Source of the DNA: a virus
Reading direction: 5' to 3' (one strand)
IMG/VR virus record: IMGVR_UViG_3300023178_000297
Coordinates: 1-22,179 of that record
DNA: 22,179 nucleotides
The notes beneath the pieces were generated by a model. That model ran no database searches and was not told the origin of the DNA. It worked only from the letters and a program-made list of their open reading frames with translations. Below, one piece after another: positions 116 through 17,809 of this stretch. Each line of letters opens with the position of its first letter. The first letter of the stretch is position 1. Made by a program: the position numbers and the translations under genes.

Positions 116-538
116 ATGTCTGATTCACCCGTTTCACTCGCCAGTCTCATGACTGCAAGCAAAACTGTCGCTGTAGACTTTCCTGGCTATACAGGTATGG
201 AAGTTTCTCTTTGTTACCTAGCAAGAGAAGAGTTAGTAAAATTACGTAAACGCTGCGTAACTACTAAATTTGATAAAAAAACTCGCCAGCCAGAAGAAAC
301 TCTCGACGAAGAAAAGTTTATTGTTGAATACTGTAAAGCTGTCATCAAAGGATGGTCGGGCCTAAAGTATCGTTACCTAGAAGAGCTTCTTTTGGTAGAT
401 ATATCAAGTCTTGACCCGGAGGATGAACTTCCTTACACTCAAGAAAATGCTGAGCTTCTTATGAAAAACTCAAATGTCTTTGACAGTTGGGTTACAGAAG
501 CAGTAGGTGACCTCGAAAATTTTACTGGGAACAAATAG
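116..538 (+). CDS. G: Tail assembly chaperone, short form (gpG-like)
   Basis: This 140-residue protein sits directly before the frameshift site and the tape measure gene, where lambda places gpG, also about 140 residues. In that family the short form binds and spreads along the tape measure protein before tube polymerisation and is absent from the finished virion. No catalytic motif or membrane segment is visible; the protein is acidic towards its C-terminus. The ATG start is supported by AAGGAA about 8 nt upstream and the promoter at 51-79. The last sense codons run through the slippery heptamer, and the stop (536-538) abuts the base of a hairpin, so most ribosomes should end here while a minority shift. 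Assignment rests on position, length and the frameshift arrangement more than on sequence motifs. Confidence 0.87.
   Translation: MSDSPVSLASLMTASKTVAVDFPGYTGMEVSLCYLAREELVKLRKRCVTTKFDKKTRQPEETLDEEKFIVEYCKAVIKGWSGLKYRYLEELLLVDISSLDPEDELPYTQENAELLMKNSNVFDSWVTEAVGDLENFTGNK
517..523 (+). promoter_or_regulatory. -1 programmed frameshift slippery heptamer A AAT TTT
   Basis: In the frame of the 116-538 gene the codons here are GAA AAT TTT, so the heptamer A-AAT-TTT fits the X-XXY-YYZ rule exactly. Slipping back one base re-pairs the two tRNAs as AAA and TTT. The -1 frame has a stop at 508-510 and is then open from 511 to 951, so the usable overlap is only 511-538, and this is the one good heptamer in it. 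After slippage the next codon is TAC at 523-525. Confidence 0.85.
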
Positions 539-951
539 CCCGAATAGATACTCTCCTAGAGAGGTCTATTCGGGAGGTAGACTCTAAGATAGACTTAGAT
601 AAGTATCTGCTTGTTTGTGAACAATTAGGTCAAGAACCCGATCCCGCCAAAATGCCGCTCGAGCCTTCGGATTTTCCCGAAGAAGTTCAAGTGGCATTTT
701 TTATGTTTAGCTTATTACCAGATCACTGGGAAGGAATGAGTGGTACATATATGGGGAAATATTGGGATGGAATCGAATATTTTTTCAATCTATATGAAAT
801 AGAAGATAGAAAGACTATTTTATATATAATGAAAATGTATGAAGCAAAGCTAGTAAATTATAGAGCAGAGCAATCAGAAAGAAAACGAAAAGCTGAAGAA
901 CGTAAAGCAAAAAGCGGTGGAAAAAATTACACCCATAATGTAAAAGGCTAA
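523..951 (+). CDS. T: T segment of the frameshifted chaperone gpG-T (116..523 joined to 523..951)
   Basis: This -1 frame reading segment is made as the C-terminal part of a fusion: 136 residues from the G frame plus 142 from this frame, 278 in all, very close to lambda gpG-T. The T part includes a conserved-looking stretch, EQLGQEPDPAKMP then DFPEEVQVAFF, typical of phage tail chaperone C-terminal domains, and ends in a Lys/Arg/Glu-rich helix (about the last 40 residues). In lambda the T part recruits major tail protein to the G-coated tape measure. An internal ATG at 652 lacks any Shine-Dalgarno and lies inside the conserved part, so independent translation from it is unlikely. The stop (949-951) overlaps the tape measure ATG by one base. 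Confidence 0.86.
   Translation, partial: YWEQIARIDTLLERSIREVDSKIDLDKYLLVCEQLGQEPDPAKMPLEPSDFPEEVQVAFFMFSLLPDHWEGMSGTYMGKYWDGIEYFFNLYEIEDRKTILYIMKMYEAKLVNYRAEQSERKRKAEERKAKSGGKNYTHNVKG
539..574 (+). promoter_or_regulatory. Frameshift-stimulating hairpin
   Basis: Bases 539-548 (CCCGAATAGA) pair perfectly with 565-574 (TCTATTCGGG). Inside, 551-555 (CTCTC) pair with 559-563 (GAGAG) around a CTA triloop, so the element is a 10 bp stem, a small internal loop and a 5 bp stem. It begins immediately after the zero-frame TAG at 536-538 and 15 nt after the slippery heptamer. That spacing is longer than the usual 5-9 nt, so the stem may act differently or form part of a larger fold. It has no following T-run and lies inside the -1 frame, so it is not a terminator. 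Confidence 0.75.
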
Positions 952-3900
952 TGGCTAAAAAAATTACTATTGATATTGAAGTTAATGGCAGAATGCAAAA
1001 AGCAACTTTGTCTGCAAAAAAGCTTCGTTCAGCTTTAAATGAAGTAGATACTGCGTCTCAAGGGGTCGAGAAAGGTAGTCGAACCTTAGACCGTAATTTA
1101 AAAGGCGCTGCAAAAACAACTTCAAATAGTACTAAAGAATTTTCAAAAATGGCACAAGGTATGGGTGGCTTGGTTGGCGCCTATGCAACTGTCGCTGCCA
1201 GCGTTTTTGCCTTATCAGCCGCATTTCAGTTTTTTAAGACAGTTGGCGACCTTGCTGCTTTGACCGCAGGACAAGAACTTTTTGCAGCAAAAACCGGCGT
1301 GTCAATGAAGTTGATGACAAAAAATATCCAAGATGCAACTGGAGGTCTGGTAGCATTTAGAGAAGCAGCACAAGCTGCCGCTATTGGAGAAGCCGCAGGG
1401 CTCAGTGCTGATCAAATGGAAAGGCTCGGTGCAGTTGCAAAGAATGCAGGAACAATTCTTGGCAGAGATGTGACTGATGCATTTAATCGACTGACTCGGG
1501 GTGCAATCAAAGCAGAACCAGAACTTTTAGACGAATTAGGTATCATTGTTCGTATCAATGATGCAGCCGAAGCCTATGGTAGAACAATAGGAAAAAATGC
1601 ACAAGATTTAACACAGTTTGAAAAAAGTCAAGCCATAGTTAATGCCGTTCTTGAGCAAGGCGAGAGTAAGTTTGATGATGTAGGAGACAGTATCAACTCT
1701 GTTGCGCAATTTGCAGCCGCGTTCCAAGATACTTTTAAAGAGCTTTCAAAGCCAATAGCAGAAGTCGCTAATTTTATTGCAAAGTCTTTGGGCGACAGTA
1801 TTTTAGGCGTAAGTTCTATTTTAGGTATTTTAGGCCTAAATATTGTAAAAAGCTTTGCTCCTGCCGGACCAGCATTAAAAAATACAGCTAAAGAAGGAAT
1901 AGAAGCTAGAAAGCGTTTAATGGAGGCTGCACATACAGAAACTAATTCTACTGTTGCAGATGAAATTCGTAAGGGAGAATTTACAAATAAAAACTTAAAG
2001 CATATAGAAACTGCTGCAAAATCTAAAACTAGTATAGTTATGAATTTGTCTAAAATGGAACGAACTGCAATTGAGAGAGATATTGCAATAATTCGTGCAC
2101 AAAACTTACGAATGACTATGGATGGGAAAAATGCCTTTACCCGAATGATTACAGGCTGGCGAATACAGCTTCTAATGTTTCAAGCCGATTATGGCAAAAC
2201 TATGGGGTATCTTAAAGCCGCTACAGCAGTGCTTACCACTGCGGTAGGAAAACTTTTTGGTGCCTTATCTTTTGTCGGATTGATTGTAATTCTTGTCGAG
2301 CTTGGAAAGCAGTTTAGAAGAACTTTTATGATTGGTGAGGATCTTCGTGAAGCAGAAGAGGCTACAGAAAAACTTAATAAAAAATTAAAAGAACAATCTG
2401 AGGCAATAAAAGAAGTAACAGCAAATCTTAAAAAGCCTACAAGTGAATTAAATCGTTTAAATCAAAAACTTGGAGTATTGGCAAACTTTAATTTAGCCCC
2501 TATAAGTGCACAAATTAATCTTTTGGAAGAAGCGGTACAAAGATTAGCAGAAGCAGAAGAAAAAAGAAAAAAAGCTAGACAACAAGTAGGTATAGAAGAA
2601 GGCCCAGAAGAAAGTGAAAAAATACCCCTGCTCAATGTTGCTCAAAAAGCCCGTTTGGGAGTAGAAACTTTTGGAGACTTAAATAAAGCACTAAAAGAAC
2701 AATATGTAGCATCTAAGAATGCACGAGACGCACTAGATGTGTATAAAACATCTCTGGGCCCCTTGGACTATTTAATAGCTAATATTTCAGGAAAGTTCAA
2801 AGAACACAATGCTGAGATACACAGATATCAAGAATTAAAAATGGTAGCCAATCAGAATGGCATACGGCTTGGATTCAACGACGCGGAAGCTAAAGCTGTT
2901 GCGGAAATACTAGAAGGTTTAGAGAACAGCGTTCCAACATTAATTAGAAATTTTGAAATGCTCGAGGAGCAAAACTTAGCACCAAAAGATGTTAATCAAC
3001 AAAAATTATTAGACCTTAAAGATAAAATCAGGCTAGTAACTGCTGAACTGGAACAAAATCCTGGTAGTGCAGAGCTAAGATTTGAATTCGAGAAGCTTAT
3101 AGAAGAGTCCCGAGGAGTTATAGATTCATTAGAGACTCAAAGTAAAAAAGCTGCATCTGTAAAGGCGTCATTTACAGGACTTACAAACGCAGTACAGCAA
3201 TTTGGTGATGCTTCTCAAAAATTTATGCCTAAATCTTCAAATTTTTCCGGAATTTTTCAAGGATTAGACGAACTCGACAGAAACTTAATGAATATTGTTG
3301 ATACCTATAAAGATACAGAAAATTTTCAAACAATAGGACAATTAATAGCAGGCGATGATGAAGGCAAAATAGATCAAGAAGGCGCAGCAATTCGAAAAGC
3401 CTATGAAATAGCTATAAAAGGCGAAAAAGATTTTAATGATGAAGAGTTTAGAGGATTACAGCTCTCTGATCTTAGATTAATGCTGTCTGAAAAAAGAGCA
3501 AAACTTGCAAAGATATTTTTTGATCTTGAAAGAGCGTCTACTTTAAATAAAATTGAAATGTTAAAAGCAGAACAGTCTATTCTGCCCTATCAGCAAAAAG
3601 CATTTAATGCAACAAAAGCCACAAACGAAGCCGAAATAGCATTAACTAAAGCAAAAAAAGAGCAAGAAATGCTAGATAAAACAAACTTAAGTGTTACAGA
3701 AGAACAAAGAATACTGGCAAAAGATAAAGTAGATTTAGCGCAAGCCGAATATGATATAGCAGTTCGTAGAGAAGCATTAGAAAGAAGACTTGTTCCAATT
3801 AGAAAAGAGCTCGACAATTTAGGTAGAGAGACGGAGCGATTAAATACTATAAAAGAAGTTGTAGCACAAGAAAGAAAAATTTTAGATATGAGAAAGCAGT

Positions 3901-5621
3901 TTCTCTCCCTAGAAAAGAAAATGGTAGAAGATAGAGTGCAGGAGGAAATAGACTCTATTGCCAACAGAAATCCTTTCTTTGATAAAGAGCTAGCAACTGC
4001 TAGGGCTAAAGTAAGTGTTGCGGAAGCATTTTTAGAGATTGAAAAACAACAAGTAGAGTCAAATTATAATTTAAAAGTAAAAGAAATTAATAATGAATAC
4101 GCTTTATTAGAAGCAAAACGAAAGCAAAGTCTTTTAGAGTTAGAGATAAAAGCAGCAGAGGCCCGCGACAAGGGAGGTCCGAATGCAGAAAGAATTGCAC
4201 GAGAATATGAATCAATTGCTGCCGTTTATAATAGTATAGATTTCAAAACTCCTAGAGATACTGCTCTTTTACTAGCAGCTAAAACAAAAGAAGCGTCATT
4301 ATACGGCCTAGAAAAAATAGTACGAGATTCAAAAAGAGCATTAGAAGAACTAGATCCATTAGATCAAGTTTTAGATGCTGCAGCAGATGCTTTTGAAAAA
4401 GGCTTAAATAATGCTGTAAATGGTATATTTGACTCTTTGATCGACGGGTCAAAAAGCATGTCAGAGGCTTTAAAAGATGCGGCTCGAGGTGTTTTATCTG
4501 CAATTCAAAAAGAAGTAACTCAAAGATTAATTGTAGATCCTCTTTTGGACGCGCTGTTTGGAGAAGAGACAACAGCAGAAACTCAAGCAAAAGCAGCAGC
4601 ACAAGGAATGCAACAAGGAGCCCAAGCAGTAAAAACAACGCTACAAACTGCAAATATTAATTTTGAGACGACTTTTACTTCTGCTTCAAACAATGTAAAA
4701 ACAGCTTTAAGTACTGGAGGCGGTTCTGTTGCTCGACAAATTACAGAGGCATTAACGTCTAATCGTGTAAAAATTGAGTGTTGTAAAGGCCCGAAAGGTC
4801 CAAAAGACCCGGCATATGGTCCTGACTCTGCTGCAAGTAACACAACTGTTACTGGAACCGATTTAAGTCGTAATAGTGAATATTATAAACAAAATTCTCA
4901 ATCAGTTTTTGATTCTGCACGAAATGAATCAGATACAGCTTTAGAAGGTGCAATGGCTCCCCAGAAGCCAGATATTAGTATGCCCATACTACCGGAAAGG
5001 GATAAAAATACAGCTGCTCTCGAAGGATTAACAGGAGTAATGACAGAAAATAATCTGGCTCTAGGACAAAACATACTAGGATTAGGACTAGCAGTAACAA
5101 GCTTGATGGGGAATAGTAGAGCTGCTCAATCTTTACAAAAAGTTATGGCAGTATTATATATTCTTCAAATGTCAATGAAAATAATTGAGACAATTCAAAC
5201 TTCTATGATTGCAGCAAACACCGCCGCCCTTATAGCAAACACTGCGGCTCAAACCGTTTCCAGCGGAGGCTCGATCATGGGCTTTGCGCGGTACGGGGGA
5301 ATCACAGAAGGATATAGTAGTGGAGGAATTGCAAAAGGCCCCCAATCAGGCTATCCTACACTTCTTCATGGTAGTGAAGCAGTTGTCCCTCTTCCAGACG
5401 GAAAAACAATACCAGTAGCTCTATCGGGGGCTGCAGGTCAACAAAATAATGTTACTGTAAATGTGTCTGTAGATAATCAAGGAAATGCGACTCAAAGAAT
5501 GGGAGGAACTTCAGAAAATCAAGCGGCAGGTCTAGGAAAAGCCATAGCACAAGCAGTTCAACAAGAACTTGTAAATCAAAAACGCTCGGGTGGAATACTT
5601 AGTCCCTATGGAACAGCATAA
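951..5621 (+). CDS. H: Tail tape measure protein (gpH-like)
   Basis: At 1556 residues this is the tape measure, whose length sets tail length and which is expelled ahead of the DNA. It follows the chaperone genes, as expected. Hydrophobic segments are visible near residues 72-94, 283-303 and 421-450, with another stretch around 1370-1440. Long Lys/Glu/Ala/Gln-rich coiled-coil regions fill about 455-600 and 870-1130. The C-terminus holds the Gly-rich tape measure signature at about 1449-1486 (GGITEGYSSGGIAKG, then LHGSEAVVPLPDG). It is much longer than lambda H (853), predicting a correspondingly longer tail by the usual rule of about 0.15 nm per residue. The ATG overlaps the preceding stop (TAATG), implying translational coupling; AAAAGG lies just 3 nt upstream. 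Confidence 0.95.
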   Translation: MAKKITIDIEVNGRMQKATLSAKKLRSALNEVDTASQGVEKGSRTLDRNLKGAAKTTSNSTKEFSKMAQGMGGLVGAYATVAASVFALSAAFQFFKTVGDLAALTAGQELFAAKTGVSMKLMTKNIQDATGGLVAFREAAQAAAIGEAAGLSADQMERLGAVAKNAGTILGRDVTDAFNRLTRGAIKAEPELLDELGIIVRINDAAEAYGRTIGKNAQDLTQFEKSQAIVNAVLEQGESKFDDVGDSINSVAQFAAAFQDTFKELSKPIAEVANFIAKSLGDSILGVSSILGILGLNIVKSFAPAGPALKNTAKEGIEARKRLMEAAHTETNSTVADEIRKGEFTNKNLKHIETAAKSKTSIVMNLSKMERTAIERDIAIIRAQNLRMTMDGKNAFTRMITGWRIQLLMFQADYGKTMGYLKAATAVLTTAVGKLFGALSFVGLIVILVELGKQFRRTFMIGEDLREAEEATEKLNKKLKEQSEAIKEVTANLKKPTSELNRLNQKLGVLANFNLAPISAQINLLEEAVQRLAEAEEKRKKARQQVGIEEGPEESEKIPLLNVAQKARLGVETFGDLNKALKEQYVASKNARDALDVYKTSLGPLDYLIANISGKFKEHNAEIHRYQELKMVANQNGIRLGFNDAEAKAVAEILEGLENSVPTLIRNFEMLEEQNLAPKDVNQQKLLDLKDKIRLVTAELEQNPGSAELRFEFEKLIEESRGVIDSLETQSKKAASVKASFTGLTNAVQQFGDASQKFMPKSSNFSGIFQGLDELDRNLMNIVDTYKDTENFQTIGQLIAGDDEGKIDQEGAAIRKAYEIAIKGEKDFNDEEFRGLQLSDLRLMLSEKRAKLAKIFFDLERASTLNKIEMLKAEQSILPYQQKAFNATKATNEAEIALTKAKKEQEMLDKTNLSVTEEQRILAKDKVDLAQAEYDIAVRREALERRLVPIRKELDNLGRETERLNTIKEVVAQERKILDMRKQFLSLEKKMVEDRVQEEIDSIANRNPFFDKELATARAKVSVAEAFLEIEKQQVESNYNLKVKEINNEYALLEAKRKQSLLELEIKAAEARDKGGPNAERIAREYESIAAVYNSIDFKTPRDTALLLAAKTKEASLYGLEKIVRDSKRALEELDPLDQVLDAAADAFEKGLNNAVNGIFDSLIDGSKSMSEALKDAARGVLSAIQKEVTQRLIVDPLLDALFGEETTAETQAKAAAQGMQQGAQAVKTTLQTANINFETTFTSASNNVKTALSTGGGSVARQITEALTSNRVKIECCKGPKGPKDPAYGPDSAASNTTVTGTDLSRNSEYYKQNSQSVFDSARNESDTALEGAMAPQKPDISMPILPERDKNTAALEGLTGVMTENNLALGQNILGLGLAVTSLMGNSRAAQSLQKVMAVLYILQMSMKIIETIQTSMIAANTAALIANTAAQTVSSGGSIMGFARYGGITEGYSSGGIAKGPQSGYPTLLHGSEAVVPLPDGKTIPVALSGAAGQQNNVTVNVSVDNQGNATQRMGGTSENQAAGLGKAIAQAVQQELVNQKRSGGILSPYGTA

Positions 5622-8464: not shown

Positions 8465-11400
8465 ATGGCTAATTTTTCCGCATCTGGTTCTAGTAAACAA
8501 TATGTAGGTATTGTTGATATGCTATGTGAGGGTCCAATTTATGGACTTGTAAATGGCAAGAGCTCCGTATATTTAAACGATATATCTTTTGAATCTGCTA
8601 CTGAAGTAGGGGCTACAACAGATACGGATACTAGTGGCAGACCTCTTACCTTAGGAAATGCAGATTCGTCAAAAGTAATGTCATTATCAACTGGCTCTGT
8701 TAACCCAGAGATGGTAGGTAAAATGGCTATTATAGAAGTAGGCATAATTGGAGTCTCTTCAATAACAACTACATATGAATCAACTACCAGAATTCAGTAC
8801 AATTACATTAATTTAGATGAAGATGCAACTTCAGACTGGAATACCTTTGATAATCCCAAAACGTTTGTAAGACTGAGAAATACTCGAAATGGAGCTTCTA
8901 CAGATACTAATACATTTACCGTCGCTGGTAATGCGGGCGCTTTACAAGCATATGAATTACCTATTAGAAGAAACTATGCTAGCGGAGTATGGGAAGTAGT
9001 CTTAATACAAGGCTCAACCATAGTATCTGTAGATAGTGCAAATAATACATTCACAGTCGAAGATGATATTATAAACCATGATAGTTTAGGAACTGAAGGC
9101 TCAAGCGGTGGGAACGCCCTTTTTCGAGTAAGAGATGCTATAACTTTTACAGTAGATATTCCTAATATTAATACAAATGTAACTAAAGTAGAAGGATCTT
9201 CTTTACAATTTAGAAAAGGAGATTTAAATCAAGCCCCTATTCAACAAGTACATGGAGTTTCGGGCGCTGTTACTAGAACAGGAAATGGACCTAACATAGA
9301 ACTAAAACAGGTTAGTGATTTTTCAACTCAGGCGGCCGGCACATATGTAGCAGGTACAATTGATGGTAATGGATACCCTACAGGGCAAAGTCTAACGCAA
9401 AATGGAGGAGTAGCGCAAGAATTCAGTTCTAGTGCTTTTGGAGCGTCTTCTCCTAGTCAAGTCGATGAGTTAACTCTTAGAATAAACTATAACAGTTTAT
9501 GTTGTTTTAATCAAGAAAATGGTGATAAAGAAAACGCATATGCTCTTTATAAATTTGAAATAGCACTAAAATTAAATGATAATTGGGGCCCTTGGCTGCA
9601 AATATTTAGTAAGTACGGAGGAATAGTTAGCCATAGAGGAAACACTACTGCTCCGGTTTCTTTCGATCATATTATAGGGCTCAATAGATTCAAGCCTTTT
9701 CAAGATTTTAAAATAAGAGTACACAGACTTACTCGACATGTAGGACTTCCTGTTCGCGCCAACGGAGGAACTGGCGGTGAAACCGATAGAAAGAAATGGA
9801 ATCTTCAGGCTTCTGGGGGCACGGGCGGCGGAAATTTAAGTTCTACAATTAAAGATAAATTTGTTTATCCAAAAACAGCACTTGCAGGAATAACTTTTTC
9901 ATCTAAAAGTTTTACTAACTTGCCAAAAAGAAGTTATGATATTCAAGGTTTATGTGTTAAAATTCCAGATAGCTATACTCCTAGAGAATATTCCGATGAT
10001 GGTGTAGCTAAGTATGAAAATTACTGGTCAGGTAATTTTAAAGAAAGACTATTCTATACGGATAACCCTGCTTGGGTTTTTTATGATATTGTTACAAATA
10101 ATAGGTACGGAGCAGGCAGGTGGATAGAACAATCAGACATAGATAAATTCGCCTTATATAGAATTGCAAAATATTGTGATGAACTAGTCCCTTCCGGGGT
10201 AAAGGATGCAAACGGTGCCGATATATTAGAGCCCCGTTTCAGGGCAAATATTTATCTTGCAAAATCTACTGATGTATATAAAGTTCTTAAAGATATGGCA
10301 ACCATTTTTACAGGAATGCTGTATTGGCTTGATGGAAAACTTTCTCCTATTCCGGACGTTCCTGCAGAACCTGTCTATACTTTTTCAAAAGCAAATGTAA
10401 TAGACGGTAATTTTGCCTATGAAACGGCGGGAAAGAAAACTCTTGCAAATCAAATTGTAGTAACTTGGAATGATCCTACTAGAAACTATGAGCCTGTACC
10501 CTTAATAATAGAAGATCGAGAAAGCATAGTTAAAGAAAGACGAATAATTTCTCAAAATTCTATAGCATTTGGAGCAACTTCCGAAGGGCAGGCCATGCGG
10601 TATGGTCGATGGAAGCTTTGGACTTCTCAAAACCAAAAAGAAGTAGTACAATTTAAAACTGGGTTACAAGGAGCATATATTCGTCCTGGAGATATTATAA
10701 ATGTTCAGGATAAGGATAGGTATGGAATTGATTTTAGTGGCAAAATTAAAGAAGTAAATACAGAAACTCCTGGCTCAGAGTACATAGTTTTAGATAGATT
10801 AGTAACTACTCCATCTAATGCTGGAACTTATAAATTAACTACAGTTGTTAAAGAGTACGCTGCTTATTATACAGGACTAGATACAAAATATTTTAATAGT
10901 AGCGGAAAAGAAGTTGCCTCTGGTACTGCGGGCGCTACCGAGTACAATAAGGGCGATAAGATAACTACAAACTTTTATGTTTGGGACTCTACGAGTGATC
11001 CGGCTGTTTGGTCTTCTGAAACACTTAATACTGAAGGAAAAGCTACCAATGCATTTTATGAAGCACAAAACACTACTGACAAACTCCCATTAGGAGTAGA
11101 GTGGAAACCTTATACTCATGTTATAACAAAAACAGTAACCTTAACGTCGGGAACAGAGTACACTACTGTTTCTATGGCAAGTGGTGAATCTTGGTACACT
11201 GATGCTACTTCCATTCCCGCAGTTGGTAGTATATATGCGTTGTCTGCAGTAGAATCTGGAACCGGAACAGAAATTTTAGGAAGTAAAAAAGAATATAAAG
11301 TTCTAGGAATAGTTTTTGAAGAAGAAAAAAATATTTATGGAATCGCAGCAGTAGAACATTATAATGTAAAGTATGATGCCGTAGATAAAGATTATGCTTT

Positions 11401-14400
11401 AGGGGCTCTTCCTGATAGTACTTATGCAGATATTGAAGATATAAATGCTGTTGTTCCTGCACCTTCCAATATTTATGTTGTTCTTGAAACAGACTCTACA
11501 AAACCGGGAGAAGAAATACGAGTAGAATGGATAAAGGCAGAAGAAAGTTATTTAGACGCCGATGGAAATACTAACACTAGAGATTATCAATTTTTAAGTG
11601 GGTATGAACTACACCATAATGTTCCAGATATAGAAAGTCCTATATTTACAACTCAGACTAGCCATAGATTTGCTGCTCTTGAAGATGGAGAATACATTTT
11701 CCGTGTCAGAACTGTGTCTAATAAACAAAATGTTTCTTCTTATACTAGTACTAAACATAATTCTATAGATCCTTTTTCTGTTACCATTCCTAGAATTGTG
11801 GGAGGACTTCCAAAAGGATTATATACAAATAGTACTTTATTCTCAACGTATGGGGGCAGTACTACTACAGATTATGAAATTGTATGGGAGAAGAATAATG
11901 CTATAGGATATTCTATAGGCGCTTCTTTATTAAGTAATAGTAGTATCTCTACAGCTTTAAATAGTATCCCTATTTACGGCCTTGTAAATAGGGGATTCCC
12001 TGTAGCTAATTATGATACCCAAGCAGAGCAAATCGCTGGGAGAGGATTAGATTTTAGTTATCGAGACGACGAGTGGTACTACATTTTATATGACGGTAGT
12101 TGTTCTTTGGGATATTGGAACACCGATACTTTGGACGGTCTTCCGTTCATGCAAAAAATTCCAAATCTAGGGGCACAATTACATCCTATAAATGGCGGAC
12201 AAAATATACAATTTACGGGCTGGAGAGGGGCCTCTCAAACATGGGCAGAAGTAACCGCAGCGGGAGGCGGCACAGTTACAGCTTCTTTGCCTGCGTACTC
12301 CAATAAATTAACTGGAAGTGGTGCTAGTTTAGATCTTTCTTTAAGAGATATTGTTCATTTTGAAGGTAGAAATTCTCAGTATGAATTTGCAGCTTATAAA
12401 ATAGATGATGTAGAGTTTGATGCAACAGAGGGGACTACAAAAGTCACTATTAGAGGAGTTGGTAAAGTAACAGGCGGGGGTGGCCAAGAAGGTTTCGATA
12501 TTCAGTTAGGGAATAATACTGATACTGGGAATTGGAGAACGGGTGATATAGTAAAAATTGATGATGTATTGCGTACTACAACTTCCAGCCCAGATAATGT
12601 TTTATTAAATGGAAATGAGTATTATGTTCGAGTAAATAGTAGTAGTACCAACGATCTTGCTAATAATGAATTTTTCTTATACGGTAGTTTAGAAGCTGCG
12701 AACGGAGATTCGTTAGCAGAAGATTCCGACAGTCTTATAATTAATGAAGAGTATAAAATAACAACATTAGGAACCACGAACTGGAATACTGTAGCAGGAA
12801 CCACCGGAGTTACATATACGGCAGGAGACACTATTACCGTTGAACAAACAGCTTCTGGAACCGGAACTGCTACAAAAACATCTCATTTTATTCCCGCTTC
12901 TCAATTAGGAGGTACTTATTTAGAATATACTGGATATGTTAAAAGAGTAAAAGTTCAAGCAGCAAAAGTTATTGCAATTGTCGATGATAATACAGTACTT
13001 TTAGATAGAAGCTTTAATACTGCAATTAATAACAGAACAATTTATAAATATAACTATAAACCTTCTTACTCTCTAGATGCTGTTATAGGCAGAATAAGAT
13101 CTGCTGGCTATAGTACTTCTAGTTCAGAGCATACCTTTATTGTAGATAAATTTTTAACTATAGACCCTGGTTTGTCTACTGCAGGCTTACAAGCAATTGT
13201 AACTCCTTCTATTCCTGTAATACAATATAATTCGGACGGAAGTACTCAATCAACAAATGTAGATGGAGCAATAACTGTTCGAGTAGATGCTATTGGCTTT
13301 TCGAATCCTCAGTTTCGAATTGTAGAAATAACGGGAGGAGGCGCAAATATTGATGTAAATGATTATACTGTAGCTTGGCAAGATTCTACAAATGTAGGAG
13401 GAACTTTTTATTCTACAGAAATAATCGCCGATGGAACTAATTCAGGCCAGTCTGATAATATTCCCTTTGAAGAAGGGGAGCCAATTATTATAACCGCACA
13501 GGTACGAGAAGAAAAAGCTAGCGGATTAAATGTAGAAAGCACAGGTCAAATTACAAAAATAACTTCAGGTTCCGACGGGCTAGATGGTAAAACTGTACAT
13601 TTAGAGTCAGATGATTATAGTATTATTTATGATGAGTCTGGACTTAATCCGCTTATGAATGGAAGTAATCGCACGATTACACTTACTGCAAGTGCTTTTA
13701 ATTTTACTGCTCCACAGTTTAAATTTATTTTTACCGGAACAAATTTAAGTACTAGTAGTAGCTTTACTTTAGGAACAAATGAATTTAGTGTTTTTAGAGA
13801 CCCTGCTACAGACGCTACAGAACTAACTGCGACCATTCAAGTTCCTACTTCTTGGAATAATAACTGGAATACTACTAAACAACAAACTGCTTTTAATGTG
13901 AAGGTAGAAGTTAGAGAGCAGGGCGATGGATCTACTACTGTTGAAGCTTTTGATGAAATTAGTATTATTGGAGTCCACTCTTCAGAGGACGGATACTGGG
14001 CAATACTAAGTAATACAGCACATACTATTCCTACTACTTCCTCTGGACAAATTATTGCCGAACATAACTCTTTAACGAATGAAACTGGGTATGCCACTAT
14101 TGAGAATTCGGGAACAACTCTCGAAGTTGGAAAAGGAGGTACTGTACTTGAGCCTTATCAAGGGACTGCTGCCGAGTGGGCATCAGAAAACTACGAAGAT
14201 CAACGAGGAAAATACTTTGTAACTTATACAGAAAATGGATCTTCTAATTCTACTGTTTTTAATAAGGGTGCAATTAGTTATAGTGATCAAGACAGCGACG
14301 GTACGGATGATCTTATAACTATAGGAGACCATGAATTTACCACTTCTGGATGGAATACAGAAACAGCACAATTAGGATTTGAAATAAATCTAGAAGGAAG

Positions 14401-17400
14401 CTCTTATAACACTATATTTTTAACTCAAGGATTTAGTAAATCAAAACAAGGTTTTGGTGGAATATCAGTTGTAAACACAAACGGCTTTGAAAGCCTGCCC
14501 TCTAGTTCGTATGGCAAAATTCAAGATTATTCTCTTACTGAAAATAGTATAAATATATTTATGTCAGGACAAAACCTGCCATATTATCCTGCAAGTTGGA
14601 TTGCAGATACTTCGAATACGCTCCCCGATACTGTAACAGCTTATTGGCAGTTTATAAGTTTGATAGATGAAAATATTGATGCAGCTACAGTAGATGATGA
14701 CGATAATACAAATACTTCTTATATGACCCCCGGGACTACGGGGGCTATGAGTATAGCTGCAGCATCAAACATGGCCGCGAGCGCTTCTTCTGCAAGTATT
14801 ACTTGGACTTTTAGGGTGTGGGTATTAGTTGGAGAAACTTGGATATCAGAAGATGTAACTGCCACACAAGTTTTAACAAGAACAAAAGGCGTTGAAAATA
14901 TTTCGTCCTTTTTAAATGTAAATCACTTTGTATTTGACGGGGATAGTACAACATCCTCGCCTTCTAGTTCAACAGTTACACTTACTGCCGTCTCTACAAT
15001 TAATGAAACTGAAAATCCTTATATAACGTATCAAATAGAAAATGGAACTGAGTCAACTTCTTGGAACAGTACTTCTACAGCAGACGGAAGAATAACTAAA
15101 ACTTTTAACTACACACGTCCAGATTACGAAACTAGCGGCTCAATAAACTATCCTATTACTTTTACTAGTAGATTTTATGACTGGGATGGAACAACTGATA
15201 GTACGTTATCTGCTGCTTTAGCTGCAGGAAGTGCGGTACTTCTTGATACAGATACAGTAACATTAAGTGCAAGTAAAACTCCTGCAGATAATGTTGTAAT
15301 GGAACTCACTAATGACAGTGATATTATTACAGTGGGAGCAACTTCTAGTACAAGTGCTATTGGTAGTTTAACCCTATCAACCACTGCAAAAATTTTCTTT
15401 TCAGGCACAGAAGAAACTGATTATACACAATGGAATTGGAATGCTACTACTTCCGGATTAACAGGCTCTTTTGATAGCTCAACTGTAAACCAGTATAATA
15501 TTACAGGCATGAATGCAAATACTAATTTTGCAACTGTAACTATTACTGCGAGCAGAATTGGGTATGGAACTCATGACAAAGTATATACGCTTGCAAGAGT
15601 TGTAGATGGGGAAGTAGGAGAGCATGCTGTAATATATTATTTAGTAGGCCCAACCGCACTAGTATATAATCCAAACACAGACACTTTTACTGGCGGAACA
15701 GGAACTAATAATAAAGAAATAGAGTTTGACTTTAAAAAATTAGACACAGATCCAAATGCAGCAAATCCTGTTACAAGTGCTAGTTTATACTATAAAATAG
15801 ATGGTATTGCAGGAAATAGCGGAGATGCCGATACTTCTGCTACTTGGGACCCTTTTGCTGCCGTACCTACTACTTCTGATTCAACAACTATTCAAGTATT
15901 TACAGATTCCAGTTTTAATAATGAGGTAGATAGAGAGACCATACCTTTAATTATTGGCGGAGAAGACGGAGTAAGCCTTACCAGTACTCAAGAGTATTAT
16001 TTAAAAACAAGCACTAATTCAGCCCCTGGCAGATACTCAAGCGGTACAACAATAGACACCGGAGATGGAGTAACTGGCTGGACTACAAGTGTTATTCAAC
16101 CTGATTCTACAAATAAGTATCTTTGGAATTTTAATAGAAATACTAAATCTGATAGTAGCACAGAAGATACAAATGTCATACTTTTAAGTCAAACAGTAAA
16201 AAGTATTTCAAGTATTACAGAAGAGTATCAAGTACATAATAGTCCTACAGCAGCAAATACATCTGGTACTTGGTATTCCACAATAGCAGGAGCAGTTGCA
16301 GCACAAGCAATTACTTCTTCCTACCCTTATCTATGGAATAGAACCACTATTGCGTACACAGATGGGAGTACAAGTACGGTTGTATATAGCTTAATCGCTG
16401 TTAGAGGAAATGATGGAGTAAGTTTTAGTGGAACAACAGAATACTATATTTTACATAACAATAAAACTAATGCGCCGGCTAGGTATTCAAACGGCACAAC
16501 TATAGCTTCCGGATGGAGTACAACAGTACCTACTCCTACTACTACTAACAGATATGTATGGAATTTTAGTAGAAACTCTAAATCTGATGGTACTTTTAAT
16601 GATAGCGCAGCATACTTAATAAGCGAACTACTGAAAAGTATTTCTAGTATTACAGAAGAATATCAAAAAGGAAGTAGCGCAACTACTGCACCTACAGGCA
16701 CTTGGTATTCCACAATAGCGGGAGCAGGTTCAATAGATGCAAATAATCCTTATATGTGGAATAGAACCACTATTGCTTATACAGATGGAAGTGCAAATAC
16801 TGTCACTACTACTGTTATTGCTGCTCGAGGAAGTGATGGAGTTAGCTACACAGGAACTGCAGAATATTATAAACTTACAAACAGCAATTCAGCTCCAGGT
16901 AGATATTCAAATGGTACAACTATTGATACGGGATGGAGTACGAGTCCCTCAACTCCCACCTCTACAAATCAATATTTGTGGAACTTTAATAGAAACTCTA
17001 AGTCTGATGGGACTTTTCAGGATAGTGCTGTTTACTTAGTAACTCAGTTCGTTCAGGATGGAAAAGGTATATCCTCTATAACAGAGCAATACGCCCTTCA
17101 TACAAGTCCAAGTAGTGCACCTAGCTCGGGTTGGAACTCAACTTTCCCGACAATTAGTGCAAACTATCCATATATTTGGAATCGAACTTTAATTAATTAT
17201 ACTGACGGTACAAATTCTGGATATATTTATACACTTATTGCTGCACGAGGTTCAAATGGTACAACTCCTGTTAAGGGAGTAGATTATGATGATGGAGACC
17301 CCGGAGCAGATGCAGGACAAGTAGTTACAGGATATATTTATTCAGCGAATAATAATCCCACAGTTCCTAATAATCAAACGTATAATTTTGCCAATGCTGG

Positions 17401-17809
17401 GCTAGATAGTGCATTTAGTAGTATTACAGGATGGTCTGTAAATCCTCCGACATTTAGCTCTACAAATAATGTTATTTATTATGCTTCTTATAAGGCAGTA
17501 GAGACTGTGAACAGCAGCGGTAACGCAACCGGAAGTGGAACTGTTACTTTTAGTGCTCGTCAAGTTGGAACAAGTTTTACAGGTCTTGTTACTTTTGCAA
17601 GCGGAGACTTTTCTACAGGCGGTAGCACCATTACAGCTATTGATGGAGGAAATATTGCAACAAATAGTATTACAGCCACCCAATTACAAATTTCTAATAG
17701 TACAGGTGCGAGTAGTGCAGGAATTAATATGAACTATAATAGTGGAAATCCTAAAATAGAAATTAGTGACGGAAGCAGCATAAGAGTTGTTTTAGGCTAT
17801 CTTTCTTAA
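8465..17809 (+). CDS. J: Tail tip / host-specificity protein J, giant 3114-residue form
   Basis: This is the central tail fibre and receptor-binding protein. The N-terminus has the J signature GIVDMLCEGPIYGLVNG (residues 15-31). The tip core follows: YPKTALAGITF at 468, FYTDNPAWVFYDIV at 530, and NSIAFGATSEGQAMRYGRW near 698-716. About 998-1098 is FN3-like and about 1580-2490 holds several Ig-like stretches. Residues 2501-2930 are three tandem repeats. The end (DGGNIATNSITATQLQIS ... GSSIRVVLGYLS) is typical of J C-termini, so the protein is complete. Lambda J has 1132 residues; the excess lies in inserts and the Thr/Ser/Asn-rich distal array. AAGGAG at 8448-8453 lies 11 nt before the ATG. 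Receptor specificity presumably lies in the distal half, which is inference. Confidence 0.95.
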   Translation: MANFSASGSSKQYVGIVDMLCEGPIYGLVNGKSSVYLNDISFESATEVGATTDTDTSGRPLTLGNADSSKVMSLSTGSVNPEMVGKMAIIEVGIIGVSSITTTYESTTRIQYNYINLDEDATSDWNTFDNPKTFVRLRNTRNGASTDTNTFTVAGNAGALQAYELPIRRNYASGVWEVVLIQGSTIVSVDSANNTFTVEDDIINHDSLGTEGSSGGNALFRVRDAITFTVDIPNINTNVTKVEGSSLQFRKGDLNQAPIQQVHGVSGAVTRTGNGPNIELKQVSDFSTQAAGTYVAGTIDGNGYPTGQSLTQNGGVAQEFSSSAFGASSPSQVDELTLRINYNSLCCFNQENGDKENAYALYKFEIALKLNDNWGPWLQIFSKYGGIVSHRGNTTAPVSFDHIIGLNRFKPFQDFKIRVHRLTRHVGLPVRANGGTGGETDRKKWNLQASGGTGGGNLSSTIKDKFVYPKTALAGITFSSKSFTNLPKRSYDIQGLCVKIPDSYTPREYSDDGVAKYENYWSGNFKERLFYTDNPAWVFYDIVTNNRYGAGRWIEQSDIDKFALYRIAKYCDELVPSGVKDANGADILEPRFRANIYLAKSTDVYKVLKDMATIFTGMLYWLDGKLSPIPDVPAEPVYTFSKANVIDGNFAYETAGKKTLANQIVVTWNDPTRNYEPVPLIIEDRESIVKERRIISQNSIAFGATSEGQAMRYGRWKLWTSQNQKEVVQFKTGLQGAYIRPGDIINVQDKDRYGIDFSGKIKEVNTETPGSEYIVLDRLVTTPSNAGTYKLTTVVKEYAAYYTGLDTKYFNSSGKEVASGTAGATEYNKGDKITTNFYVWDSTSDPAVWSSETLNTEGKATNAFYEAQNTTDKLPLGVEWKPYTHVITKTVTLTSGTEYTTVSMASGESWYTDATSIPAVGSIYALSAVESGTGTEILGSKKEYKVLGIVFEEEKNIYGIAAVEHYNVKYDAVDKDYALGALPDSTYADIEDINAVVPAPSNIYVVLETDSTKPGEEIRVEWIKAEESYLDADGNTNTRDYQFLSGYELHHNVPDIESPIFTTQTSHRFAALEDGEYIFRVRTVSNKQNVSSYTSTKHNSIDPFSVTIPRIVGGLPKGLYTNSTLFSTYGGSTTTDYEIVWEKNNAIGYSIGASLLSNSSISTALNSIPIYGLVNRGFPVANYDTQAEQIAGRGLDFSYRDDEWYYILYDGSCSLGYWNTDTLDGLPFMQKIPNLGAQLHPINGGQNIQFTGWRGASQTWAEVTAAGGGTVTASLPAYSNKLTGSGASLDLSLRDIVHFEGRNSQYEFAAYKIDDVEFDATEGTTKVTIRGVGKVTGGGGQEGFDIQLGNNTDTGNWRTGDIVKIDDVLRTTTSSPDNVLLNGNEYYVRVNSSSTNDLANNEFFLYGSLEAANGDSLAEDSDSLIINEEYKITTLGTTNWNTVAGTTGVTYTAGDTITVEQTASGTGTATKTSHFIPASQLGGTYLEYTGYVKRVKVQAAKVIAIVDDNTVLLDRSFNTAINNRTIYKYNYKPSYSLDAVIGRIRSAGYSTSSSEHTFIVDKFLTIDPGLSTAGLQAIVTPSIPVIQYNSDGSTQSTNVDGAITVRVDAIGFSNPQFRIVEITGGGANIDVNDYTVAWQDSTNVGGTFYSTEIIADGTNSGQSDNIPFEEGEPIIITAQVREEKASGLNVESTGQITKITSGSDGLDGKTVHLESDDYSIIYDESGLNPLMNGSNRTITLTASAFNFTAPQFKFIFTGTNLSTSSSFTLGTNEFSVFRDPATDATELTATIQVPTSWNNNWNTTKQQTAFNVKVEVREQGDGSTTVEAFDEISIIGVHSSEDGYWAILSNTAHTIPTTSSGQIIAEHNSLTNETGYATIENSGTTLEVGKGGTVLEPYQGTAAEWASENYEDQRGKYFVTYTENGSSNSTVFNKGAISYSDQDSDGTDDLITIGDHEFTTSGWNTETAQLGFEINLEGSSYNTIFLTQGFSKSKQGFGGISVVNTNGFESLPSSSYGKIQDYSLTENSINIFMSGQNLPYYPASWIADTSNTLPDTVTAYWQFISLIDENIDAATVDDDDNTNTSYMTPGTTGAMSIAAASNMAASASSASITWTFRVWVLVGETWISEDVTATQVLTRTKGVENISSFLNVNHFVFDGDSTTSSPSSSTVTLTAVSTINETENPYITYQIENGTESTSWNSTSTADGRITKTFNYTRPDYETSGSINYPITFTSRFYDWDGTTDSTLSAALAAGSAVLLDTDTVTLSASKTPADNVVMELTNDSDIITVGATSSTSAIGSLTLSTTAKIFFSGTEETDYTQWNWNATTSGLTGSFDSSTVNQYNITGMNANTNFATVTITASRIGYGTHDKVYTLARVVDGEVGEHAVIYYLVGPTALVYNPNTDTFTGGTGTNNKEIEFDFKKLDTDPNAANPVTSASLYYKIDGIAGNSGDADTSATWDPFAAVPTTSDSTTIQVFTDSSFNNEVDRETIPLIIGGEDGVSLTSTQEYYLKTSTNSAPGRYSSGTTIDTGDGVTGWTTSVIQPDSTNKYLWNFNRNTKSDSSTEDTNVILLSQTVKSISSITEEYQVHNSPTAANTSGTWYSTIAGAVAAQAITSSYPYLWNRTTIAYTDGSTSTVVYSLIAVRGNDGVSFSGTTEYYILHNNKTNAPARYSNGTTIASGWSTTVPTPTTTNRYVWNFSRNSKSDGTFNDSAAYLISELLKSISSITEEYQKGSSATTAPTGTWYSTIAGAGSIDANNPYMWNRTTIAYTDGSANTVTTTVIAARGSDGVSYTGTAEYYKLTNSNSAPGRYSNGTTIDTGWSTSPSTPTSTNQYLWNFNRNSKSDGTFQDSAVYLVTQFVQDGKGISSITEQYALHTSPSSAPSSGWNSTFPTISANYPYIWNRTLINYTDGTNSGYIYTLIAARGSNGTTPVKGVDYDDGDPGADAGQVVTGYIYSANNNPTVPNNQTYNFANAGLDSAFSSITGWSVNPPTFSSTNNVIYYASYKAVETVNSSGNATGSGTVTFSARQVGTSFTGLVTFASGDFSTGGSTITAIDGGNIATNSITATQLQISNSTGASSAGINMNYNSGNPKIEISDGSSIRVVLGYLS
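15965..17254 (+). repeat. Three tandem coding repeats near the J C-terminus
   Basis: Units start at 15965, 16412 and 16835 (J residues 2501, 2650 and 2791) and end at 17254, giving units of 149, 141 and 140 residues. Each opens with DGVS and has an A half (YY...APGRYS-GTTI...W, then a Y[LV]WNF[NS]RN motif with KSD) and a B half (SISSITE[EQ]Y, W[YN]ST, a YPY-WNRT-like motif, then YTDG). Units 1 and 2 share exact 20-nt DNA blocks at 16268-16287/16700-16719 and 16334-16353/16757-16776, pointing to fairly recent duplication or recombination. Similar SI-EEY/W-ST/YLW-RT repeats occur in distal receptor-binding parts of other phage tail proteins; function here is inferred. Confidence 0.9.

Follow-up and report, generated by a model that had tools for sequence, protein, structure and literature searches.

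The frameshifting that yields phage tail assembly chaperones is a textbook case, in which lambda uses the heptamer G GGA AAG, and the unrelated dnaX gene of E. coli achieves its -1 frameshift with a heptamer, an upstream Shine-Dalgarno (SD)-like element and a downstream stem-loop. The evolution of such sites is, to our knowledge, little documented. In lambda, G and G-T are tail assembly chaperones produced by a -1 frameshift, as described in PMC5009743, and T5 and Sugarland are listed in PMC6256483 as phages in which no frameshift signal was predicted.

We report a comparative analysis of a tail chaperone locus from an IMG/VR virus record of 22,179 bases, the whole of which is referred to here as the window. 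It carries a siphovirus-type tail module, in the order G (116-538), T (511-951, in the -1 frame) and tape measure gene (951-5621), then the M, L, K and I-type minor tail proteins and a J-like protein. The last of these, at 8465-17809, is a central fibre protein of 3,114 residues, very long for its position; the label J is one that we presume from gene position. The features of the chaperone locus are as follows.

116-538, + strand: G, a short tail-assembly chaperone ORF (ATG116 to TAG538, 140 aa; PHROG 313, tail assembly chaperone, E 1.2e-12)
517-523, + strand: slippery heptamer A AAT TTT, in phase in the zero frame as GA[A AAT TTT] and conserved in relatives
536-538, + strand: TAG, the zero-frame stop of G, read from the sequence
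511-951, + strand: the T frame (-1), predicted to be read as a G-T fusion, from 523 after the slip (PHROG 3914, E 2.4e-19)
951-5621, + strand: tape measure protein (PHROG 3779, E 1.3e-42), its start overlapping the stop of T (TAATG)

The -1 frame is opened at 511 by a TGA (508-510) and closed by a TAA (949-951), and shares 28 nt with G (511-538). The predicted G-T fusion comprises 136 + 142 = 278 aa with the junction ...DLENF/YWEQ..., and the coordinates and product sizes (140 and 278 aa) proposed in an earlier, sequence-only reading of this DNA proved correct when read again from the sequence. G and T are both homologous to annotated tail assembly chaperones, PHROG 3914 bearing the same label, 'tail assembly chaperone', as PHROG 313, and the pair occupies the position of a chaperone pair, directly upstream of the tape measure gene. 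The likeness to lambda G and G-T drawn in that reading holds as an analogy of layout and logic, but by sequence the homologues found are the T5-type chaperones, and no lambda G/T family appeared among the window's Pfam and PHROGs matches. T5-type phages are also the nearest named relatives, and all of the phage records that match T (892) and G (902) do so at under 60% identity.

The first two viral-contig searches with T and G returned 160 loci which, together with the window, gave 103 distinct loci with both genes, one of the 161 being dropped with its G cut off. An enlarged set of 339 loci, from which 114 duplicates and 8 loci lacking G were removed, left 217 distinct loci with both genes, 174 with T in the -1 frame and 43 with T in the +1 frame; the -1 loci are represented below by 76 sequences under 90% identity. 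Relatives were located on only three MAG contigs in a genome-contig scan. One search pattern (KFYWEQIA, in all synonymous codons) covers part of the slip site, the patterns of the second search do not, and loci obtained from patterns not covering the slip site show the same heptamer.

That heptamer, AAATTTT at 517-523, lies inside the overlap of two ORFs in a -1 relation and in phase with the zero frame, just where it had been placed. The bare string is common in this AT-rich window, where 18.6 matches are expected and 26 occur; an in-phase XXXYYYZ, by contrast, is seldom seen elsewhere in G, at 19 of 9,646 positions across the 76 representatives. In the first set T stands in the -1 frame in all 103 distinct loci, each with a single in-phase XXXYYYZ, which is AAATTTT in 102 and TTTTTTT in one, and the enlarged set has such a heptamer in the overlap of all 174 -1 loci, with AAATTTT in 173 and the equally slippery TTTTTTT in the other (L017). 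The Asn codon of the heptamer is AAT in 75 of the 76 representatives, TTT replacing Asn in the last, and the Phe codon is TTT in all 76; Asn codons in the rest of G are divided between AAT (123) and AAC (101), and the heptamer is conserved beyond protein constraint.

These counts bear directly upon two alternatives. To the notion of an assembly or sequencing error, or of a decayed gene, we give practically no credence: the two-frame layout recurs in 174 distinct loci from many metagenomes, independent contigs that already refute it, T is under coding constraint, and nothing in the analyses made was found to support it. The run of seven T in L017 would suit transcriptional slippage, in which the slip on the A4T4 stretch is made by RNA polymerase instead of the ribosome, but AAAATTTT is a short mixed run, AAATTTT is retained in 173 of 174 -1 loci, and a polymerase would need neither a stem nor an SD-like element, all of which makes this explanation highly improbable. 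Three further conserved elements lie upstream or downstream of the heptamer.

505-510, + strand: internal SD-like AGGTGA, ending 6 nt before the heptamer (from codon bias and anti-SD match)
539-574, + strand: downstream stem-loop, the proposed frameshift stimulator, in a register specific to the window's subclade (from fold, synonymous permutations and covariation)
649-702, + strand: terminator-like hairpin followed by U6 inside T, with AUG652, the earliest in that frame, in its 5' arm; conserved in the -1 clade

The sequence-only reading had suspected that the mechanism needs a further element, a pseudoknot or an internal SD sequence; of these the SD-like AGGTGA was found and no pseudoknot was seen. 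The sequence AGGTGA(T/C)C precedes the heptamer across the representatives, and the element is constrained at synonymous sites, the Gly codon within it being GGT in 58 of 68 cases, as opposed to 31 of 158 Gly codons in the preceding part of G. An anti-SD match of at least 5 nt is present in 73 of the 76 representatives (the other three match by fewer than 5 nt) against 76 of 760 control windows, as scored with the tail of E. coli 16S rRNA, which may not be that of the host. Were the duplex to reach as far as the usual SD core, the end of the core would stand about 9 nt ahead of the heptamer, close to the spacing that favours -1 slips in dnaX.

Downstream of the heptamer, 539-548 and 565-574 are perfectly complementary and make a 10-bp stem. 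In the predicted fold of 539-574 this stem continues with a U.G pair, a bulged A and another 5 pairs, reaching -21.9 kcal/mol, a stability attained by none of 200 shuffles, and the spacer between heptamer and stem is indeed the 15 nt described earlier. For each T gene we permuted the synonymous codons and folded the 54 nt after the heptamer, in 75 representatives, one of the 76 being too short. None of the 200 such permutations made for the window's T gene equals its hairpin (z -5.4), and in 75 of 75 representatives the stem is stronger than coding explains, with a mean z of -2.78, 56 values below -2 and none above 0, though it is weak (z above -1) in six, L017 with its TTTTTTT variant among them. 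Control stretches of T gave a mean z of -0.11 at codon 80 and of -1.54 at codon 45, which proved to fall within a second hairpin.

The stem is found in several registers, which among the 76 representatives comprise a majority register (49), one shifted by one codon (8), that of the window with its 15 nt (7) and a scattered remainder (12). The majority register starts 8-10 nt after the heptamer in 46 of its 49 members and pairs the zero-frame stop codon, typically as CAAGTAG...CTACTTG. That the hairpin follows the zero-frame stop, as had been pointed out, is true in the window and incidental, for most relatives have the stop inside the stem. Covariation in the majority register scores 0.337, with G-C/A-U changes at columns 19-40 and five standard pair types at 23-36; shuffling gives 0.126, none of 500 shuffles coming as high, and sliding gives no more than 0.161. 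The set scored, which consists of all 49 register-43 representatives but L072, together with L028 and L222 of register 44, was picked by register, so that its percentage of paired cells is flattered. In the register of the window's subclade the score is 0.209 against 0.120 shuffled, double changes are present and L008 has an A-U to U-A swap. The compensatory changes for which an alignment of related phages had been suggested as a check are seen in both registers, and the downstream structure is conserved with such change, six of the 75 representatives having weak stems.

A single family-wide stem was rejected: RNAalifold run on all 76 representatives gave none there, because the registers differ, and the stems were accordingly grouped by register. 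A pseudoknot was likewise discarded, as the spacer in the window does not pair convincingly with anything further downstream and the 3-nt hairpin loop means that no classical pseudoknot is possible; a weak outer helix in some folds rests on protein-conserved letters. No Rfam family matched positions 1-1000 of the window at the gathering score.

In the tree of these loci the window's register falls inside the -1 clade, whose members mostly have the 8-10 nt register, and the 15-nt spacer is therefore most simply a derived relocation. The register has moved several times, the fewest changes among the four register classes being 11. The hairpin at 539-574 is not the module of the family, and looks like a relocation peculiar to the window's own subclade. 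Because its 15-nt spacer exceeds the 8-10 nt of most relatives, the window's stem may act weakly or differently. It is also conceivable that the frameshift is real and the 539-574 hairpin not stimulatory at all, a relic or a structure with another purpose, the SD-like element and the heptamer being sufficient; the spacer length, the repeated movement of the register (11 changes or more) and the weak stems of some relatives point this way, and we nonetheless judge it unlikely, in view of a stem far above coding constraint (z -5.4) and of pairing kept by compensatory change in the window's subclade.

A further alternative dispenses with the frameshift altogether and makes T a separate protein, synthesised by reinitiation or internal initiation after G terminates. 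The T5-type records annotate two separate ORFs and there is an AUG at 652, but that AUG is buried in a conserved stem and the window has no ATG, GTG or TTG in the T frame between 511 and 652, yet the T protein before 652 is conserved; the frozen heptamer, moreover, would be left unexplained. The first ATG, GTG or TTG of T occurs at codon 42-43 after the slip or later in 46 of the 76 representatives, and the remaining 30 have an earlier T-frame start, upstream of the slip in three, so that the argument from the missing start is strongest for the window and those 46. On balance we regard separate initiation as very unlikely.

The -1 frameshift of the sequence-only reading is strongly supported by the conserved heptamer and the conserved downstream stem, and relatives that keep the two-frame layout with neither of these were sought and not found among the -1 loci. 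Comparison of the loci establishes conservation of the layout, heptamer, stem and SD-like element, selection on RNA structure and homology to chaperones. We hold it highly probable that 511-574 is a -1 programmed ribosomal frameshift site giving G and G-T; -1 programmed frameshifting, in itself an event of a known kind, is thus very likely for this tail assembly chaperone. As to the slippage itself, its rate, its stimulation by these two elements and its role in assembly, we infer the following. Most ribosomes would read G to TAG538 and release the 140-aa chaperone, while in a minority the Asn-tRNA on AAU and the Phe-tRNA on UUU would slip back together to AAA and UUU at A_AAU_UUU, and these ribosomes would continue in the T frame to give the 278-aa G-T fusion. 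Slipping would be made more frequent by two elements, the downstream stem-loop and the internal SD-like AGGUGA on the upstream side. As in lambda, G would coat the tape measure protein and the T domain would recruit tail-tube subunits.

G itself contains a further constrained stretch, upstream of the overlap.

374-398, + strand: synonymously frozen element TACCTAGAAGAGCTTCTTTTGGTAG, 25 nt, with a small hairpin (from synonymous identity and fold)

Its excess synonymous identity is about +0.5, against about 0.05 around it, at the same place in the -1 representatives, and it is present in a single copy in the window. A milder excess of synonymous conservation, perhaps related to translation initiation, is seen near the start of G at 131-157.

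The T5-type relatives present the opposite arrangement. All 43 distinct T5-type loci, which include named isolates, environmental contigs and T5, have T in the +1 frame relative to G, and in every one the overlap contains TTT followed in phase by CGT, CGA or CGC (TTT CGN), where TTT encodes the Phe homologous to the window's slip codon. This Phe is TTT in all 15 +1 representatives (under 90% identity), the G genes overall having 41 TTT and 37 TTC; the 15 were chosen by carrying TTTCG, but there is no +1 locus without TTTCG among the 43. TTT CGN stands at the G/T junction in L162-L175, L187 and the other T5-type loci, in L171 as exactly TCC TTT CGT, and T5 itself (AY543070, T5.143/T5.142; its sequence is L187) carries the predicted +1 site. 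The window's G and T are homologous to T5.143 and T5.142, with the -1 relation and AAATTTT in place of that layout. Neither AY543070, the record of T5 itself, nor any of the 13 annotated T5-type records that were inspected first describes a fusion, and a literature search (T5/Demerecviridae, frameshift, chaperone) revealed no report of a T5 +1 site in titles or in the opening lines of abstracts.

On this comparative evidence, T5-type phages seem to slip by +1 at the codon homologous to that of the window's -1 slip, a +1 frameshift is predicted for the T5 chaperone pair, and the polarity of the slip has apparently been switched between the T5-type and marine clades. The two directions split with one change and a support of 100 in a tree that was built by a quick method and has long branches and an unknown root. 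No intermediates between the +1 and -1 clades were found among the loci searched. A single-base indel, if joined by a new motif, could turn either layout into its counterpart; AAATTTTCG is an example of a site in which both motifs would be present.

Features that may bear on transcription also stand around G and T, namely the hairpin at 649-702 and two upstream of G.

5-24, + strand: intrinsic terminator-like hairpin ending the upstream unit (8 pairs, T-rich tail)
51-79, + strand: sigma70-type promoter TTGACT-17-TATAAT for G-T (11/12 matches, near-consensus)

A sigma70-type promoter scoring at least 10/12 precedes G in 70 of the 72 representatives scanned and arises in 11 of 360 shuffles, and with so near-consensus a promoter kept directly before G, G-T looks like its own transcription unit. 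The hairpin at 649-702 (-27.4 kcal/mol, z -5.87) is stable, conserved and followed by six U, as in an intrinsic terminator, although it was not among the hits of a terminator pattern scan restricted to loops of at most 8 nt. Set against synonymous permutations it is the more stable in each of the 70 representatives scored, every z being below -2, and GGCATTTTTT of this region is kept in 75 of 76; its pairing is 94.4% and its pairs are mostly invariant, so that covariation says little. We infer that transcription may terminate at 697-702. Among T5-type loci a T-run hairpin, annotated as a terminator in the T5 record, follows the T stop by 58-72 nt in 9 of 11 and lies more than 800 nt further on, past an extra gene, in the other two. 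In the marine clade the tape measure ATG is within 8 nt of the T stop in 73 of 74, abutting or overlapping it, and a terminator there must therefore lie inside T.

We would tentatively suggest, as something that may well prove otherwise, that the G-T unit is a two-level rheostat, with its own promoter and a terminator within the frame reached only by frameshifting, the slip direction having also switched at one homologous codon, from +1 UUU_CGN to -1 A_AAU_UUU or the reverse. Transcripts ending at the terminator, 110 nt past the G stop, would give only G, G-T and the tape measure protein would require read-through, and a ribosome translating T after the slip would unfold the terminator hairpin by its own passage. 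If this is true, frameshifting tunes both the ratio of G to G-T and transcription into the tape measure gene.

Compared with the known systems, the locus resembles lambda in that two products, the short form presumably in excess, would arise by a -1 slip between overlapping frames situated immediately ahead of the tape measure gene, and differs from it in the heptamer, A AAU UUU as opposed to G GGA AAG, and in having a stem and an SD-like element. With E. coli dnaX it shares the arrangement of heptamer, SD-like element and stem-loop; the spacings of the SD-like core and the stem differ and the gene is unrelated. The T5-type (Demerecviridae) pair T5.143/T5.142 consists of homologous G and T before the tape measure region with the slip site at the homologous Phe codon, and differs in having T in the +1 frame and TTT CGN (43 of 43) instead of AAATTTT. 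Within one family the heptamer is frozen across a clade, the proposed stimulatory stem has shifted its place on the mRNA although the protein has been retained, and the direction of the slip has apparently changed between homologous genes. For the T5-type relatives, though not for the window, to which it does not apply, the yardstick is the +1 site of influenza PA-X, UCC_UUU_CGU, which shares with them the UUU_CGN core and the direction of the slip and belongs to eukaryotic translation; PMC3498833 gives UUU_CGU slippage in PA-X as established by mass spectrometry and UUU_CGN as a class of +1 sites that function in eukaryotes. The T5-type loci suggest that UUU_CGN may work in bacteria too, and they predict that a +1 frameshift has been overlooked in the classic laboratory phage T5.
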